DNA from: Corallococcus sp. NCRR
GTDB lineage: Bacteria > Myxococcota > Myxococcia > Myxococcales > Myxococcaceae
Length of the DNA stretch: 64,000 bases
Reading direction: 5' to 3'
Assembly (NCBI RefSeq): GCF_026965535.1
Contig: NZ_CP114039.1
Location: 2,728,001-2,792,000 of the forward strand
The notes under the pieces were generated by a model. That model made no database searches and was not told the DNA's origin. It was given only the letters and a program-made list of their open reading frames with translations. The translations under genes and the position numbers were made by a program. Positions 16,762-51,882 of this stretch are shown here, in pieces. Each line of letters opens with the position of its first letter. The first letter of the stretch is position 1.

Positions 16762-17000
16762 AGTCGCGGGTGGGGTAGGCGCGCTGGGCAGAAGCAAGTG
16801 GCAGGGGGGCGCTTGCGTGACCGCGGGTTCGGCGTCTCCGTGCGCAGGACGCGCCACTCGCCAGCTTGGGGCTTGGGTGTCCTCTCCAGCTCGATATCGC
16901 GGGGGGAAATCGTGAGTCCCCAGGAAGCATCATCGACTGTCCCCCTGACAGGAGGACGACCGATGGACCGCGCTTCAGGGGCTGACCAAGCCGAGCGTCA
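16762..17000. other. Intergenic leader to the repeat array
   Basis: About 240 bp between the membrane protein and the 50-bp repeats. Apart from the short frame starting at 16963 (separate entry) I see no gene, hairpin or convincing promoter here. Confidence 0.6.
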
Positions 17001-17103
17001 AAATCGTTTTGCGTACGAACGCTACGAAATGAGTGCTTCCTGGAGCCCCCTAATCATTTTGGTGGACGGAATCCCCACGGTAACGATTTCTGGAGCCCCC
17101 TAA
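16963..17103 (+). CDS. Possible small ORF reading into the repeat array
   Basis: 46 codons beginning MDRASGADQAERQN, with a near-ideal ribosome site (GGAGG at 16951-16955, 7 nt spacing). It reads through the first two repeat units and stops at the TAA that opens the third unit (17101). No homologue is recognised, and the C-terminal half is simply translated repeat, so it may be chance. Listed because its start signal is better than that of the Fic gene downstream. Confidence 0.3.
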   Translation: MDRASGADQAERQNRFAYERYEMSASWSPLIILVDGIPTVTISGAP

Positions 17104-17300
17104 TCGTTTTGGTGGACGGAATCCCCACGGTAACGATTTCTGGAGCCCCCTAATCGTTTTGGTGGACGGAATCCCCACGGTAACGATTTCTGGAGCCCCC
17201 TAACCGTTTTGATTACGTTCTCCTCCTGAGTAACGGTTTCTGGAGCCGCCTAACCGTTTTGTGCACGAATCCCCTGGAACGAACGATTTCTTGAGTCGAT
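17001..17300. repeat. Six 50-bp tandem units carrying inverted half-sites
   Basis: Units begin at 17001, 17051, 17101, 17151, 17201 and 17251. The units at 17101 and 17151 are identical and the one at 17051 differs by one base; outer ones are diverged. Each unit holds a conserved ~30-bp block (centre CTGGAGCCCCC) flanked by the half-sites AACGATT and AATCGTT, and a 20-bp middle part that varies in outer units. In the unit around 17231-17260 both half-sites change together (AACGGTT and AACCGTT), keeping complementarity. It ends 66 bp before the Fic start. An operator array or structured RNA is possible. Confidence 0.9.
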
Positions 17301-17366
17301 CTCCCGTCATGGCAGGTCTGTTTCTTCCCCGGATGCCGTGCCGTGTAGTCGAGATGGCGTGACCCA

Positions 17367-18941
17367 ATGCCCGCGCATCCGCCATCAGAGCGCTCCCGAG
17401 CGATTCGTGCACGCCTGGGCGTTGACCTTCCTCCCAAGTCGGAGCCCATCGGTTATGCCCAGGTCATCCTGGAGCATGAGCTCGTCGTGCTACCGCATCA
17501 CCAGGTGTCCTTCGTCGCACCTGGGGGGGGGAAGCGTGAGCGCGTCGAAAGAGGGCGGAGCATCGTCGTCTATCCCCCGGCCTACGCTCCAGAGCCAGGG
17601 CTCTTCCATCAGCTGGAGTTCGCGCTCAAGTACGAGGGGGTGTCGCTCGAAATCCTCTCTGCCCTGTTCGAGAAGGTCACAAGGGGAGTACTGGAGCCAC
17701 TCCTCAGGGAGTACATCCAGCAACGGCCTACCGGGCAGTACTCGCGGCGGCTCTGGTTCCTCTATGAGTTCCTCACCGGAAACATGCTGGACCTGCCGGA
17801 CGCGACCATCGGCAATTACGTCCCGTTGCTAGACCCCCAGGAGTACTTCACCGCCACGGATGAACGGAGCCGGCGCCATCGCGTCATCAATAATCTATTG
17901 GGCACCGTGGAATGCTGCCCCATGGTGCGGCGCACCGAAAAGCTTGAGCGCTTCGCCAGCCTGAAACTGGCGAATCAGGCTTCCCGGCTCATGGAGGAGT
18001 ACGATGAGGACGCGCTCCGTCGGGCCGTCAATTACCTCTATGCCAAGGAGACCCGCTCCTCCTTCGCAATCGAGCGGGAAAAGCCAAGTCAGGACCGCAC
18101 CGAGCGCTACGTGGCCCTCCTGCGGCGCGTTCCCCAGTGGGACACGCTGGATGAGGCGGCGCTGACGGACATCCAGAACCAGACCGTGGATCCGCGCTTC
18201 GCGGAGACGGGTTACCGGCAGGGGCAGAATTACATCGGTGAGACAGTGAGCTTCACCGAGCAGAAGGTCCACTACCTGCCGCCCCGTCCCGAGGACGTCC
18301 CGTCCCTCATGAAGGGGCTGCTCGCCAGTGTCGAGCGGATGGCGAAGGCCCACGTGGACCCCATCGTTCAAGCGGCGGCGGTGTCCTTCATCTTCGTTCT
18401 CATCCACCCGTTCCTGGATGGGAACGGGCGTCTGCACCGCCTGCTCATCCACTACATCCTGTCGCGCTCAGGCTTCACGCCCCCGGGGCTCATCTTCCCT
18501 ATCTCCGCGGTGATGCTGCAGAAGCGCTCCGAGTACGACGCCTGCCTTGAGTCCTTCTCTGTCCCGCTCATGCAGCAAGTCGACTACACGCATGACGAGG
18601 AGTGGCAGGTCACGGTGAAGGGGAAGACCCGCAACCTGTACCGTGCAATCGATTGCACGCGGATGGCGGAGGACCTCTACGCGTGGACCGAGGAGACCAT
18701 CCGCACGGAGTTCCGCAAGGAGCTGGAGTTCATCGTTCGCTACCGTCAGGCCCGTGAGCAGATGGAGCAGGTGGTGGACATGCCGGACCGGCAACTGAAC
18801 CTGTTCATCCAGGTGGTCCTTCACAACAAAGGCAAGCTCTCCTCCACCAAGCGCGCCTCACACTTCGAACTCCTCACCGACGCGGAGGTCCAGGCGCTGG
18901 AGACCATCCTCCAGGAGCAGTTCTTCAAGGGTTCAGCTTGA
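17367..18941 (+). CDS. Fic-domain protein (probable AMPylase)
   Basis: About 524 residues. The Fic core motif HPFLDGNGRLHRLL (about residues 347-360) has the catalytic His and the phosphate-binding GNGR. An inhibitory-helix-like segment, RSSFAIERE, lies N-terminal (about 227-235). It matches (S/T)xxxE(G/N) except that Arg follows the Glu, suggesting class II autoinhibition. Fic enzymes transfer AMP (or related groups) to target proteins; targets are unknown. A long helical N-terminal region and a C-terminal winged-helix-like part (LSSTKRASHFELLTDAEV) complete it. No separate small antitoxin gene is adjacent. It lacks a good Shine-Dalgarno and lies just after the dyad array. Its 3' end overlaps the convergent gene by 17 bp. 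Confidence 0.88.
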   Translation: MPAHPPSERSRAIRARLGVDLPPKSEPIGYAQVILEHELVVLPHHQVSFVAPGGGKRERVERGRSIVVYPPAYAPEPGLFHQLEFALKYEGVSLEILSALFEKVTRGVLEPLLREYIQQRPTGQYSRRLWFLYEFLTGNMLDLPDATIGNYVPLLDPQEYFTATDERSRRHRVINNLLGTVECCPMVRRTEKLERFASLKLANQASRLMEEYDEDALRRAVNYLYAKETRSSFAIEREKPSQDRTERYVALLRRVPQWDTLDEAALTDIQNQTVDPRFAETGYRQGQNYIGETVSFTEQKVHYLPPRPEDVPSLMKGLLASVERMAKAHVDPIVQAAAVSFIFVLIHPFLDGNGRLHRLLIHYILSRSGFTPPGLIFPISAVMLQKRSEYDACLESFSVPLMQQVDYTHDEEWQVTVKGKTRNLYRAIDCTRMAEDLYAWTEETIRTEFRKELEFIVRYRQAREQMEQVVDMPDRQLNLFIQVVLHNKGKLSSTKRASHFELLTDAEVQALETILQEQFFKGSA

Positions 18942-20334
18942 GCAGAAAGCCGTCCTGCAGCGGCCGTGACGGTTCGTCCTCCGGGACGGACCGGTTGAAG
19001 CCGCCGGCGAGCAGCACGCCTCCAGTGGCGTCCACGCTCACGGCCCGGGCCTGGGCCACGGTGCCGGGGCTCGCGAAGCCGCGCACCCAGAGCGACGTGC
19101 CCTCTTCCGGCAACAGCTTCGCCACATACAGGCCCGGCGGCAGGTTGCCTCCGCCCAGGGCGAGGCCGCCGTCATGGCCGCCCGCCACCGTCAATTGCCC
19201 CGCGTCGTCGGTGGCCACCATGGGCGCGCCAGTGGGGAAGGTGCGCGCCCACTGCTGGCCGCCCTGCGCGTCGTAGGCCAGCAGGAAGCCGTCGCGCGAG
19301 TCCGCGCGGTGGAAGGTCTTCTGGAAGTACAGCCGGCCGCTGAAGCCTCCGCCCACGAAGACGCGGTCCGCCCCCACCGCCACGGACACCGCCGTGCCAT
19401 CCGTGCCGCGCACGTCATGGCTCCAGACGTGGTCTCCGTCCCGGGTGAGCTTCACCACGAAGGGCGTGTGCTGGCGCACGGTGACGAAGGTCGCGTCGCC
19501 AAACGACACCGCACCGGCATAGCCGCCCACCACGTGCACGTCGCCAAAGACATCCACCGCCACCGCCCGCGCGGAGACCTCGCCCTCGCTGGAAGGCATC
19601 CACACGCGGCTCCAGTGCTGCTCACCCCGGGGGCCCACGCGCAGCGCGAAGCCCGCGTGTCTGCCCTGGGGCGTGCGCTTCAATCCCTCTCCCAGGTCGC
19701 GCGCGCCGGCGAAGTCCCCCACCAGCACCGCGCCGCCATGGTGGTCGGGCGTGACGCCGTTCACCGCCACCGGCCCCTCACCCGGCAGCGAGCGCACCCA
19801 GTCCAGCGCGCCGCCGCCATCCAGCCGGGCCAGGAACGGCCCCTCCGGCAGCGTGGCGCCGTCGCGGGTGAAGCCCGCGGACATGCCCGTGAGGAAGATG
19901 TTGTCGTGGGCGTCCACCGCCAGGCCGCCCACCCGGGCCCGCGCGGCATGCCCGGGCGTCCAGCCCCGGGCCCACTTCAGCGCGCCTTCCGACGAATACC
20001 GCGCCACCAGCAGGTGTGGCGCCACGACGTTGCGATTGAAGGGCAGGGGACCCGCCCCCAGGTCGATGGGCTCTTGATAGGTCGCCGCCACGAGGACGTC
20101 CCCGTTGGAGGTCACCACCGCGTGCGGAGCCTGAGGGTCCCCAACCCTCAGGGTCCGCGACCACACGTGGGCCTCCACGCCCTCTGACGCGACCTGTCCA
20201 CCCACCTCACCGAGCACCGGGATGCGCGGTGCCGTGGCTCGGGCTTCCTCGCACCCCACGAGAAAGAGCCCCCCCACGAACACCGCCATCCGAATCCACG
20301 CCACCGCCGCCCCCCGTCCCGGAACCCGCCCCAC
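18925..20334 (-). CDS. Beta-propeller-like surface lipoprotein
   Basis: About 469 residues. The N-terminus carries a lipoprotein signal with lipobox FLVGC (Cys28). The rest is a series of repeats of about 50-60 residues, each with a pattern such as 'G-G-A-V-D-x-x-G-N/D-(V/I)-x-(V/L)-x-G' (for example GGLAVDAHDNIFLTG, VAVDVFGDVHVVGGYAG, VSVDATGGVLLAGGF). This is characteristic of SBBP/Kelch-like propellers common in Myxococcaceae. A membrane-anchored binding or scaffold protein is likely; no enzymatic site is seen. It converges on and overlaps the Fic gene by 17 bp, so the two transcripts oppose each other. Confidence 0.8.
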   Translation of the reverse strand: MGRVPGRGAAVAWIRMAVFVGGLFLVGCEEARATAPRIPVLGEVGGQVASEGVEAHVWSRTLRVGDPQAPHAVVTSNGDVLVAATYQEPIDLGAGPLPFNRNVVAPHLLVARYSSEGALKWARGWTPGHAARARVGGLAVDAHDNIFLTGMSAGFTRDGATLPEGPFLARLDGGGALDWVRSLPGEGPVAVNGVTPDHHGGAVLVGDFAGARDLGEGLKRTPQGRHAGFALRVGPRGEQHWSRVWMPSSEGEVSARAVAVDVFGDVHVVGGYAGAVSFGDATFVTVRQHTPFVVKLTRDGDHVWSHDVRGTDGTAVSVAVGADRVFVGGGFSGRLYFQKTFHRADSRDGFLLAYDAQGGQQWARTFPTGAPMVATDDAGQLTVAGGHDGGLALGGGNLPPGLYVAKLLPEEGTSLWVRGFASPGTVAQARAVSVDATGGVLLAGGFNRSVPEDEPSRPLQDGFLLKLNP

Positions 20335-44378: not shown

Positions 44379-46312
44379 GCCTTGAGCCTCTCCCGCAGGA
44401 GCTGGTTCTCCTCCAGGAGGGCGGTGGCCCGGGTCGTGTCCTCGAAGAGGATGATGGAGCCCAGCACGTGCGTGTCGGTGATGAGCGGCGTGGCCACCAG
44501 CGTGGCGCTGCCCTTGCCCCCGTGCGGCAGTTGGTAGGGGATGCTCTCCATTCGCAGCGAGCGCTTCTCCTGCAGGTGGCGGCGCAGCTTGAGCAGCAGC
44601 GCGCGCTTCAGCGCGGGCACGTGCAGGGACCACAGGAACTGGCCCACCGTTTCGCGCTCGGTGAGGCCCAGGAGCCGCTCCGCGGCCAGGTTCCACGTGG
44701 TGATGCGGCCGTCGCCGTCCAGCACCAGCACCGCGGCGGAGAGGGTGCGGATGATGGTGTGCTGGCGGAAGGTGAGCGCGTCCATCTCCAGCGTGCGGTG
44801 CGCCAGCTCCCGGTTGGTGGCGTCCAGCTCCGAGTTGGCCGACTGCAGCTCCTCGTTGGTCGTCTCCAACTCCTCGTTGGTGGACTGGAGCTCCTCGTTG
44901 GTCGTCTGCAGCTCCTCGTTCGCGGACTGGAGCTCCTCGTTGGTCGTCTCCAGTTCCTCGTTGGACGCGCGCAGCTCCTCCGTGGAGGACTGCATGCGCA
45001 GCTGCATGGCCTGCACCTCCTCCTGCGCCGCGCGCAGGTTCTGCTCCACGCCGCGCAGGTGGGTGACGTCGTGGATGATGTACAGCAGGCCCTGCTGCCG
45101 GCCTCCCCCCGCCTCTCGCAGGGGCACCACCTGGATGCGCAGGCTGAGGGGGTCTCCGTTGGCGACCTCCATCACCCCGTCGGCCACCTCCCGCTCGGAG
45201 TGGCCGGAGCGCACGCGCTGGCTCTGGTCGACGAGCAGGTCGCCGCCGAGGCCGGGCAGGCCCAGCGTCGCCAGCTTCTTGCCCAGCATCTCGCCCTCGT
45301 TGCGGTTCCACATCCGGGCCGCCGCGCGGCTCCACAGCGTCACCGTGCCGTCGTTGTCCGTGGCGATGTGCGGACAGGGATGCGAGTCCAGGAGGTTGCG
45401 CAGGAACGAGCGCTCGGAGTCCATGCCGGGCTCGAAGAGGCGCGGCAGGGTGGAGGGCTCCGGCGGCAACCGGTCCTGCGTCGTGCTGGTCACCTCCGCC
45501 TGGCCGTCCTTGCGGTAGATGCGCCGGGCCAGGTCGATGGGACGGAAGAGCCGGGCGGCGAAGGGGATGAGCTCCGAGCGGCCCAGCACCATCAGGCCGT
45601 TGCGGCGCAGCGCGAACTGGAAGCGCGCCAGCACCCGCTTCTGCAGCTCCGCGTCCAGGTAGATGAAGACGTTGCGGCACAGGATGATGTCGATGCGCGA
45701 CACCGGCGCGTCCGACACCAGGTTGTTCACGCCGAACACCACCGCGCGGCGGATCTCCTTGCGCACCGTGTAGCTGTTGCCGGTGCGCACGAAGAAGCGC
45801 GCCAGCCGCTCCGGTGAGACATTCTCCAACTGCTCCGGCGCATAGACGCCCCGGCGCGCGGTGGCGATGGCGTCCTCGTCCACGTCCGTGCCGAACACCT
45901 TCAGCTCCGCGCCGGGATAGCCTGGCCCCAACGCCTCCGCCGCGATGATGGCCAGCGAGTACGCCTCCTCGCCGGTGGCGCAGCCCGCGCTCCAGATGCG
46001 CAGCTCCGTGTCCGGCCGCTGGCGGATGAGCTCCCCCACGCTCTGCTCCAACGCCTGCCAGACCTCCTTGTCCCGGAAGAAGCACGTCAGCTTGATGAGC
46101 ATGGAGGAGACGAGCGTGCTCACCTCCACGGGGTCGCGCTCCAGCAACGTCAGGTAGGCGGCCCGGCTGCGGCAGCGCGTGGCCTGCATCCGCCGCTCGA
46201 TGCGCCGCTGCAACGTCGCCCGCTTGTAATTGCGGAAGTCGAAGTTCCGCACCTGGCGCACCTTCTCCAGGATGGCTTCGAGCTCGTTGTCTCGTGGAGG
46301 CTTGGTCGCCAT
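44375..46312 (-). CDS. cheR: CheR methyltransferase with PAS and repetitive coiled coil
   Basis: About 645 residues from the ATG at 46312. N-terminal CheR domain has RRIERRMQ, the SAM motif IWSAGCATGEEAYSLAI and LCRNVFIYLD. Then a PAS domain, a striking heptad stretch with repeated 'NEEL(E/Q)(T/S)(T/A)' units (about 480-550) and a second PAS (TIIRTLSAAVLVLDGDGRITTWN). This is the layout of CheB-CheR-PAS proteins minus the CheB part, which is a separate convergent gene. It would methylate receptor glutamates using SAM. No Shine-Dalgarno is seen before this ATG. Confidence 0.92.
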   Translation of the reverse strand: MATKPPRDNELEAILEKVRQVRNFDFRNYKRATLQRRIERRMQATRCRSRAAYLTLLERDPVEVSTLVSSMLIKLTCFFRDKEVWQALEQSVGELIRQRPDTELRIWSAGCATGEEAYSLAIIAAEALGPGYPGAELKVFGTDVDEDAIATARRGVYAPEQLENVSPERLARFFVRTGNSYTVRKEIRRAVVFGVNNLVSDAPVSRIDIILCRNVFIYLDAELQKRVLARFQFALRRNGLMVLGRSELIPFAARLFRPIDLARRIYRKDGQAEVTSTTQDRLPPEPSTLPRLFEPGMDSERSFLRNLLDSHPCPHIATDNDGTVTLWSRAAARMWNRNEGEMLGKKLATLGLPGLGGDLLVDQSQRVRSGHSEREVADGVMEVANGDPLSLRIQVVPLREAGGGRQQGLLYIIHDVTHLRGVEQNLRAAQEEVQAMQLRMQSSTEELRASNEELETTNEELQSANEELQTTNEELQSTNEELETTNEELQSANSELDATNRELAHRTLEMDALTFRQHTIIRTLSAAVLVLDGDGRITTWNLAAERLLGLTERETVGQFLWSLHVPALKRALLLKLRRHLQEKRSLRMESIPYQLPHGGKGSATLVATPLITDTHVLGSIILFEDTTRATALLEENQLLRERLKA

Positions 46313-50380: not shown

Positions 50381-51882
50381 GACTGGCTCCGCAGCTCCTG
50401 GGCGTGCACGTACGCCGACACATGGGCGGCGTGCGAAGAATGCGGGTGCGGTCCGTGAGGTGTCGGAGCGTGAGGCGCCGCGTGCGGCCCGTGCGCCACC
50501 GGCGCGGGAGCCGCCGCCGCATGGGGAGCGGGCGCGTGCGGGGCGTGGGCCACCGGCGCGTGCACCGCGTGAGGCGCGTGAGGCGCCGCGTGCGGAGCGT
50601 GTGAAGCCGGAGCCGGCTGGGCGTGGACGGCCGGAGCATGGGCCACCGGAGCGTGCGCCACCGAGGCATGCGGGGCGTGCGCCGGGACCGCGTGGGCCAC
50701 CGGAGCGGAGTGCGCGTGAGCGGCGGCCGCGTGCACCGGAGCGGAGTGCGCGTGCGCCGCGGCCGCGTGGACCACCGGAGTGGAGTGCGCGTGCGTCGCG
50801 GACGCGTGCACCGGAGCGGAGTGAGCGTGAGCCGCGGCCGCGTGGGCCACCGGAGCGGAGTGCGCGTGAGCCGCGGCCGCGTGGGCCACCGGCGCGTGCT
50901 GCGCGTTCATCGCGTGCATCGGGCAGCCGCCGCCGGTGCGCGCCTCGTGCGCGTGGGCCGGAGCCGCGTGCGCCACCGCGGCGTGATGCACCTGCGCCGC
51001 CACATGCGCGTGCGCCGCCTGCGCCTGGGCCACCGGCGCGTGCACCGCCGTGTCCTTCATCGCGTTGATGGCGGCCATCGGGCAGCCGCCGCCGGTGCGC
51101 GACTCGCCCGGCGTGTAACCACCCTCGCGCTTCCAACCCGCGGTCAGCTCCACGCGCACGTCCCACAGCGCGCGGAACAGCGGCAGCGTCATGCGCGCCT
51201 GCAGCACCTGCGACGGCAGACCGTCCAGCGCCTTCACCGTGCGGTCGATGCCAATCGTCCGGCGCACCAGCTGGTAGTGCGCGTACAGCCATCCCTGGAA
51301 GCTCTCATCCACCGTCACCAACTGCTCGCAGACGTGCTGCAGGTCCTTCGGCCCCCCAGCCGAATAGACCTGGAACAGCGTCAGCCCGCGACGCGCCAGC
51401 ATGCGCTCCATCGCGGACTCCAGCCCGTCCGCCGCGTGGCGCAAGGTGTTGTAGCCCGGCGACTCCTGGCCGCTGCCGTTGCCCAGGCTGCGGCGGATGA
51501 CCTGGTACTCGGCCGGGGTCATCGTCTCCAGGATGGCCATCTCCGCGCTGATGCCGGCGAGGATCTTCTGCACCCGCACCAGCCGCGCGGACACCGCCCA
51601 CAGCGCGTCGCGGTCCATCTCCGCCACGACCTCCACCATCTCCCGCGACGCCAGCTTCAGGTACAGCTCCTGGGACTGGTGGACGATCTGGAACATCAGC
51701 TCGTCGTGGGACACCAGCTCGTCTTCCGGAGACTGCAGCGCCAGCAGGGTGCCCGTGTGCAGGTAGCGCTCGTAATCCAGCTCGCCCTTCCCAACCCACT
51801 TCTTCAACATCACGTTGAACAGGGGCTGAGTCAGCTCCTGCTTCAGCTTTTCCGCGTGGCTGTAATCGGTCGACGTGTGCAA
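50377..51882 (-). CDS. Tryptophan 2,3-dioxygenase-like enzyme with long His-rich tail
   Basis: About 501 residues from a TTG start with GGAGG upstream. Residues 1-261 form the TDO fold: FQIVHQSQELYLK provides the distal pocket with His68, and WLYAHYQLVRR places the probable haem-ligand His at 202. The usual TGG(S/T)SG loop after it is replaced, so the enzyme is divergent. Residues 262-501 are an Ala/Pro/His-rich tail with about 48 histidines and two GGGCPM motifs (Cys267, Cys320). TDO opens the indole ring of tryptophan to N-formylkynurenine. The stop overlaps the kynureninase start, so the set acts as one pathway; a formamidase is not present. Confidence 0.85.
   Translation of the reverse strand: MHTSTDYSHAEKLKQELTQPLFNVMLKKWVGKGELDYERYLHTGTLLALQSPEDELVSHDELMFQIVHQSQELYLKLASREMVEVVAEMDRDALWAVSARLVRVQKILAGISAEMAILETMTPAEYQVIRRSLGNGSGQESPGYNTLRHAADGLESAMERMLARRGLTLFQVYSAGGPKDLQHVCEQLVTVDESFQGWLYAHYQLVRRTIGIDRTVKALDGLPSQVLQARMTLPLFRALWDVRVELTAGWKREGGYTPGESRTGGGCPMAAINAMKDTAVHAPVAQAQAAHAHVAAQVHHAAVAHAAPAHAHEARTGGGCPMHAMNAQHAPVAHAAAAHAHSAPVAHAAAAHAHSAPVHASATHAHSTPVVHAAAAHAHSAPVHAAAAHAHSAPVAHAVPAHAPHASVAHAPVAHAPAVHAQPAPASHAPHAAPHAPHAVHAPVAHAPHAPAPHAAAAPAPVAHGPHAAPHAPTPHGPHPHSSHAAHVSAYVHAQELRSQS
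50380..51099 (-). repeat. Repeat region encoding the His/Ala/Pro tail
   Basis: 720 bp encoding residues 262-501 of the dioxygenase. The coding repeats have a period of about 12-13 residues, for example VAHAAAAHAHSAP five or six times with changes, then a looser HAP(H)A stretch. Histidine is about 20 percent of the tail. Confidence 0.9.

Follow-up and report, generated by a model that had tools for sequence, protein, structure and literature searches.

A Fic gene of the PDC-S24 family in Corallococcus sp. NCRR is preceded by an array of directional repeats, probably its autoregulatory operator

Class II Fic AMP-transferases are characterised by the catalytic motif HPFxDGNGRxxR and by an inhibitory helix, [S/T]xxxE[G/N], located ahead of the Fic core. 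Examples of this inhibitory-helix motif appear in two articles (PMC10628234; PMC9755527). As the closest described system, CccR is a Fic protein repressing its own promoter (PMC9755527); it is of class II, as the Fic protein considered here may be, provokes growth arrest in E. coli and exerts negative feedback via boxes near its own -35/-10 elements. Unlike the present locus, with its direct repeats in steps of 20/30 bp, numbering up to 12, and its acidic C-terminus, CccR has its HTH at the C-terminus and a single pair of inverted 10-bp boxes lying 26 bp apart. RptR, which represses a defence island of type I restriction-modification, is likewise a defence-locus autorepressor with three direct repeats over the -10 box (PMC12255303), but it is a separate small repressor, its 9-bp repeats hold a 6-bp palindrome and no Fic protein is involved. 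A relative of the gene considered here also lies in a type I restriction-modification locus, namely on a plasmid of Deinococcus psychrotolerans (L327), between hsdS and hsdR and together with a MazEF-like pair. The type IV antitoxins AbiEi and Rv2827c are similar in being autoregulated by multiple promoter repeats, and a domain of Rv2827c is the best, though weak, fold match of the N-terminal domain of our Fic protein; they differ by an N-terminal wHTH binding DNA, by inverted repeats and by a separate toxin gene (PMC7319586). CbFic2, the top structural match of the whole Fic model, has an activity altered by DNA binding but is a histone-modifying effector binding DNA through a C-terminal wHTH, for which random DNA was tested and no specific site is reported in the portion of the article available (PMC10628234). 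Finally, Sofic is comparable as a Fic toxin acting in abortive infection against phages, except that a small downstream protein counteracts it (PMC12249575), and the SoFic structures align to our model only from about residue 180. In the open part of PubMed Central, neither a description of such repeats before a Fic gene nor a paper naming PDC-S24 was found. As such, autoregulation of a Fic toxin is already known, while the operator design described below is unmatched in the literature searchable.

The window, i.e., the whole stretch of 64,000 nucleotides analysed here, contains on its forward strand an open frame of 524 amino acids, the fic gene (17367-18941), whose product matches Pfam Fic (E 1.2e-16) and, over its full length, the PADLOC PDC-S24 model PDLC04966 (E 9.3e-179, residues 25-519 on 4-489 of 497). 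Judged from its sequence, the gene is a member of PADLOC PDC-S24, a candidate single-gene phage-defence family, and encodes a predicted AMP-transferase toxin of the PDC-S24 type. The protein can be divided into (i) an N-terminal domain (residues about 27-180), (ii) an inhibitory-helix-like motif (S232 to E236), (iii) the Fic core with its catalytic motif HPFLDGNGRLHR (residues 347-358), and (iv) acidic C-terminal helices (residues 431-524). In the 12 rows of alignment A1, the letters of the catalytic motif are invariant, as is S232xxxE236, the following residue being R in six rows (the window included), G in four, N in one and H in one. Fic is the Pfam family found in all 12 members of A1, the other matches being single ones at E 0.02 or worse; with Fic as the sole Pfam family at E 0.001, an endoribonuclease toxin of the ToxN type (type III TA) was rejected. 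The predicted structure of the whole protein (pLDDT 88.7) resembles Fic proteins in its top matches, first of all Coxiella CbFic2 (8cil_B, Z 23.6, 3.7 A over 293 aligned residues), which stands level with other Fic proteins, the next three entries being within Z 1.

Ahead of this gene, the original prediction had reported a 50-bp repeat array, and the array is real: TRF delineates it at 17040-17274 (4.7 copies, 87% matches), upstream of the start of fic at 17367. It is composed of 12 sites, one of them degenerate, located from 17001 to 17281 (coordinates taking the T of TAA as reference) in steps of exactly 30/20 bp throughout. The two "half-sites," TAACGATTTCT and TAATCGTTTTG, are same-strand copies of a single degenerate word, with gTAAtCGTTTTTCA as family consensus and TAAYSRTTTYK as its form in the window, which is directional and present in a single orientation; each period thus consists, more accurately, of two sites in the same orientation, spaced by 20 and 30 bp. 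On the forward strand, site 1 (AAATCGTTTTG, 17001-17011) was read from the sequence, matches the TAATCGTTTTG form at 10/11 positions and lies 30 bp before 17031, where site 2 (GAGTGCTTCCT, 17031-17041), also read from the sequence, is degenerate (6/11) and conserved in position in the relative G013 (g1265). The remaining ones came from a word scan, namely site 3 (TAATCATTTTG, 17051-17061), sites 4, 6 and 8 (TAACGATTTCT, 17081-17091, 17131-17141 and 17181-17191), sites 5 and 7 (TAATCGTTTTG, 17101-17111 and 17151-17161), sites 9 and 11 (TAACCGTTTTG, 17201-17211 and 17251-17261), site 10 (TAACGGTTTCT, 17231-17241) and, closest to the fic gene, site 12 (GAACGATTTCT, 17281-17291), which G013 keeps at the same spacing. 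The three central 50-bp units are near identical, as previously noticed, and so are three spacers, the copy number of the window being recent. No other scanned region has as many sites (10 by the same scan, the next best having 8). In the 9.79-Mb genome, the 30-bp block occurs at five places, all inside the array (up to 3 mismatches); a search for two copies of the short word at a distance of 20 bp (up to 2 mismatches) finds four pairs, each of them in the array. A CRISPR array, i.e., near-identical repeats with unique spacers of equal length and cas neighbours, was considered and rejected, the sites being degenerate, 11-14 bp long, at alternating 20/30 bp and with three near-identical spacers. 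Elsewhere in the window, TRF also finds dense GC-rich tandem repeats with periods of 15-114 at 50467-50914, perhaps a repetitive protein region, and a 21/42-bp tandem repeat of about 9 copies at 44804-44994, perhaps coding.

The original prediction viewed AACGATT and AATCGTT as arms of a dyad kept complementary by selection through compensating changes, be it as an operator or as a hairpin. These words are indeed reverse complements and 3/5 blocks of the window are fully complementary, two of these being identical copies; this complementarity, however, arises because the core of the word, AAYCGRTT, is almost palindromic, both arms being TAANNNTTT words read in the same direction. Complementarity is not preserved in the block at 17181, where the arms AACGATT/AACCGTT mismatch, and the column pair carrying the proposed compensation is unpaired in 5/7 distinct rows of an alignment of five blocks from the window and three from G013 (8 blocks, 7 distinct rows), the only genome with a DNA match to the array among 143 others. 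Over all cells, pairing amounts to 87.8%, as against a mean of 87.9% after shuffling; of 500 shuffles, 342 attain the observed pairing and 93 the observed covariation score, which with 7 distinct rows is a weak test lending the claim no support. In G013, the arms are non-complementary (0/3 blocks fully complementary, few rows), the very outcome named in advance as speaking against a dyad. Shifting the arms against each other by 1 to 3 columns lowers pairing to 6-51%, as would be expected of two words that are near reverse complements. Moreover, the word is directional in the family, with opposite-strand sites at the level of shuffles, and a dyad under selection appears very improbable. An inverted-repeat operator of the CccR kind was likewise rejected, given direct repeats of fixed polarity and arms without covariation above shuffles. 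From the original interpretation, a selected protein operator array tied to the Fic gene is thus retained, and the dyad and the folded RNA are abandoned.

The array and the gene belong to an accessory stretch (16763-18934, ends uncertain by about 10 bp), delimited by comparison of the flanks with 15 same-genus relatives. In six of these, the flanks are joined without array and fic, positions about 16762-16773 of the window standing beside 18925-18943, with at most 10 bp between them in three cases (right flank at about 18925-18935); among the remaining relatives, G013 keeps array and gene, and eight had a match for the left flank only in the stretch fetched. Array and fic gene are, as such, gained or lost together. 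Otherwise, the accessory stretch holds only a mechanical frame of 101 codons (16798-17103). In G013 (L020 / L007), the fic gene is broken, its middle part with the catalytic region being absent from the match, and the array keeps its 30/20 steps.

Beyond the genus, the PDC-S24 model at E 1e-60 is matched in 17/297 genomes of the order of the Mesorhizobium locus, 43/395 of the phylum of the Mangrovibacterium locus and 18/274 of the class of a gammaproteobacterial locus, three sets drawn from larger groups and including the genome of the respective locus itself, as well as in 23/195 genomes of the own phylum; 0/14 control genomes match at this threshold, and phage records gave no match at E 1e-15. 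The 152 loci with a profile match include duplicates and fragments. After dropping L001-L007, fragments lacking the N-terminus, scores below 170, loci whose upstream DNA was shorter than 250 bases, N-containing sequences and exact duplicates, 99 upstream regions were kept, the window included, which are not independent of each other as only exact duplicates were removed. Named loci in the sample are from Actinomycetota, Desulfobacteraceae, Limisphaerales, Alpha- and Gammaproteobacteria, and Bacteroidota, and arrays with the gene are found on plasmids, viral contigs and chromosomes across different phyla. In one genome (G055), a CRISPR-like array (repeat near GTCCCGCTCGCCGTGATGCCGAGAGGCGTTGA) adjoins the Fic relative on its 3' side (L013, about 950-1400).

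In a motif search over the 99 upstream regions, four of nine seeds (one of them NNTATAAT) converged on gTAAtCGTTTTTCAng, either as such or shifted, two led to a looser TAAcnnTTTT form of somewhat higher likelihood (1045 vs 979), two to AT-rich T-runs and one to an unrelated weak motif; the first form (gTAAtCGTTTTTCAng) was used for site scans. The log-likelihood per upstream region is 9.1-10.6 over three seeds. Among the controls, two sets of shuffled sequences score 2.1-2.3, 95 downstream regions 2.2-2.4, 89 regions lying far upstream 3.8-4.1, and the upstream regions of 52 of 54 other Fic genes 2.3-3.2. A region carries on average 2.99 sites on the sense strand at threshold 8 (3.96 at threshold 6), 0.33 (1.04) on the antisense strand and, in the remaining controls, 0.19-0.42 (0.58-1.13). 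When searched separately, the opposite strand gave the word reversed for one of three seeds and AT-rich motifs for the two others. As the scoring matrix was learned on the same regions, matrix-free and held-out tests were added. Matrices trained on three of the four groups and tested on the remaining one find 1.5-4.3 sense sites per region against 0-0.89 antisense, bearing in mind that the groups Alpha, Bact, Myxo and other were assigned from locus numbers and are not cleanly taxonomic, L157-L170 from the 'Bact' phylum search being placed in 'other'. Ten later loci, i.e., four viral contigs and six plasmids, are all phased, with 50 sense vs 6 antisense sites; these were hand-picked, the viral ones as the longest four matches among 80 loci and the plasmid ones as six out of 259 records, and several of the six plasmid loci are close to training loci. 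Some 5/99 regions are devoid of any site at threshold 6 and 15/99 have fewer than two. By eye, L018, L017, L182, L185 and L196, with no or few sites by the common matrix, seem to have deviant words of their own in similar steps, such as TCATCGATTYC in L018 or AAGCRCTTTACCACC 30 bp apart in L196. Altogether, the word recurs before the same Fic gene family in very different bacteria from several phyla.

With the window excluded, 84 of 289 intervals between sites are of 19-21 bp, 92 of 28-31 bp, 32 of 49-51 bp and 81 of other lengths. In the matrix-free test, a 12-mer is repeated (at least 10/12) at one of nine phased lags in 86/98 regions, compared with a mean of 16.7 and a maximum of 29 regions for nine random lags, which excluded those near multiples of the phased lags; again excluding the window, lag 30 is found in 48/98 regions, lag 20 in 38 and lag 50 in 38, for an expectation of 1.0-1.6. 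Among 41 x 41 spacing pairs, 30 followed by 20 is the most frequent (42/98 regions, median 0), the reverse order being found in 17/98. The recurring module is hence site-30-site-20-site, of which at least one full triplet is present in 63/99 regions and none in 36/99, 32 regions having two; the linkers between triplets range from 20 to 87 bp, 11/32 of them at 47-51. A single triplet, ending at the start codon, is present in the copy of the Deinococcus plasmid (L327). In L329 and L330, two annotated copies from Alphaproteobacteria, the last two sites (-62 and -42, counted from a position 78 bases into the gene) fall within coding sequence, 20 bp apart and in different reading frames, and therefore the protein sequence does not explain them. 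Of the helical periods tried, 10.0 bp fits the intervals best (resultant 0.69, compared with 0.63 at 10.5), which says nothing on how a protein lies on the DNA. Against this background, it is scarcely conceivable that the array is a neutral tandem duplication without function: the near-identical central units do reflect recent copy number and G013 has fewer units, yet the same word with the same polarity and 20/30 spacing recurs in distant bacteria ahead of this gene family, the spacers being dissimilar. On this point, the preference of the original prediction for selection rather than neutral slippage is borne out.

Whether such an element acts as DNA or as RNA can be approached from the promoters. 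The best sigma70-like promoter lies at -97/-75 in L194, L177, L038 and L039, and at -93/-72 in L040; in these five loci, the -35 box starts where the first site of the proximal triplet ends and the -10 box lies in the second site, with shuffle fractions of 0.016-0.066 (60 shuffles per locus, uncorrected for the number of loci). In 19/24 loci of the set with profile scores of 560-760, no promoter is found at that place, and in the rows shown for other groups the best promoters are at scattered places. For the window, a promoter within 17031-17366 was considered and none is claimed, the best sigma70 score being just 3.7 and common to three repeat copies. That the repeats would act as an RNA, be it an antitoxin RNA or a leader binding or silencing Fic in the manner of type III TA systems, is suggested by tandem repeats lying directly upstream of a toxin gene on the sense strand only and by some sites falling within annotated coding regions, hence transcribed (L329, L330). 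Nonetheless, nested RNA folding does not exceed that of shuffles in 57 arrays (mean z 0.03, with one array under -2 and another over 2), the array of the window scores -0.43, and its region has no Rfam match at E up to 1, so that neither the folded RNA of the original prediction nor a structured repeat RNA of the ToxIN kind is recovered. In addition, more sites are located upstream of the best promoter in L038, L039 and L194, and the steps are fixed near 20/30 while the linkers between triplets vary. An RNA role is accordingly deemed improbable; promoter overlap and lack of a folding signal favour a putative DNA operator over an RNA element.

If the array is a DNA operator, its reader may be sought in the way the sites change. 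Within a locus, sites have an identity of 0.564 vs 0.446 when shuffled (sd 0.0056; 281 sites from 57 loci, compared over the 10 columns that lie outside the T run), and flanking spacers are hardly more alike within a locus than between loci (0.34 vs 0.31 and 0.31 vs 0.28); an example of such drift in step is GCGCACGTTTTTT, present in four phased sites of L152. This joint drift points to a reader belonging to the locus itself. The distance between these dialects correlates with the divergence of the N-terminal domain (rho 0.459), the Fic core (0.351) and the C-terminal part (0.346), permutations giving at most 0.24. In partial correlations, from which shared descent is only partly removed, the N-terminal domain keeps 0.455 given Fic and 0.383 given the C-terminal part, when Fic and the C-terminal part fall to -0.204 and -0.064 given the N-terminal domain. 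By 30-residue windows over 53 loci, given residues 181-520, the correlation is positive from 22 to 216 and highest at 127-171; 10/12 of the windows in 22-216 exceed all 100 permutations, and further on 307-336 and 442-471 just do so, the conditioning disfavouring windows inside 181-520. The N-terminal domain of the Fic protein is, from these correlations, inferred to be the best candidate reader of the sites.

Folded alone, this domain is predicted with a pLDDT of 96.4 and gives no Foldseek match at E 0.001 or better. On a second look, its best fold match is the C-terminal antitoxin domain of mycobacterial Rv2827c (1zel_B; Z 6.8, 153/171 aligned, 4.5 A), followed by nucleotidyltransferases (Z 4.2-5.3) and AbiEi (6y8q_D, Z 3.8), the AbiEi-fold scores (Z 6.8 and 3.8) being below the level of a safe match and perhaps meaning just a common arrangement. 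The AbiEi profile PF11459 is silent in 118 genomes and equally so in all controls. By open-frame lengths, matches to the domain are found in 25/193 genomes of the phylum, in PDC-S24-like frames or short frames. In other Fic proteins, the DNA-binding domain is located at the C-terminal helices; here, three such helices are modelled (474-519), the alignments to CbFic2 and SoFic reaching residues 519-524, but the C-terminal part is net acidic (-5.2 per 100 aa over 90 relatives), unlike the usual DNA-binding domain, and the N-terminal domain is near neutral (+0.5 per 100 aa). As the Fic protein thus lacks an obvious DNA-binding domain, the operator could be read by another protein, such as a host or phage regulator or a partner, and RptR indeed offers a precedent (PMC12255303), being a small separate repressor that acts through three direct repeats lying over the promoter of a defence locus. 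Such a reader remains rather unlikely, given that the accessory stretch has no other gene of known kind, that arrays accompany the gene in different phyla, on chromosomes as well as on plasmids and viral contigs, that the sites of a locus drift jointly and track a Fic domain, and that paired sites are absent elsewhere in the genome at up to 2 mismatches.

All in all, the array probably serves as a DNA operator for autoregulation, with the Fic protein itself binding to it. The unit of this operator would be a word of about 14 bp with a fixed direction (family form gTAAtCGTTTTTCA), repeated in one orientation at 20- and 30-bp steps, which the Fic protein would bind with its N-terminal domain as reader. 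Several Fic copies may then assemble side by side on the DNA and cover the promoter, by which the toxin would hold down its own synthesis. In the window, recent duplication of a 50-bp (30+20) unit has multiplied the module to 12 sites, which would provide stronger or buffered repression.

A further-reaching scheme, in which the Fic toxin would sit as an ordered, directional oligomer on the array (triplets 30-20) with its AMP-transferase held inactive, the array serving both as antitoxin and as sensor whose loss or occupation at the time of phage infection would free the toxin, is quite improbable. If true, the 12-site array of the window would represent a larger store of restrained toxin, and the gene would constitute a single-gene, DNA-restrained abortive-infection system, in which a Fic toxin would be silenced by a novel route needing neither a protein nor an RNA as antitoxin.

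Under the autoregulatory operator, a candidate phage-defence gene gains a concrete and testable regulatory element, namely a directional word of about 14 bp together with a 30-20 spacing rule, the rule being conserved across phyla while the word drifts locus by locus. This element suggests where the Fic protein binds and which domain may read the DNA, and it could aid in finding such genes.
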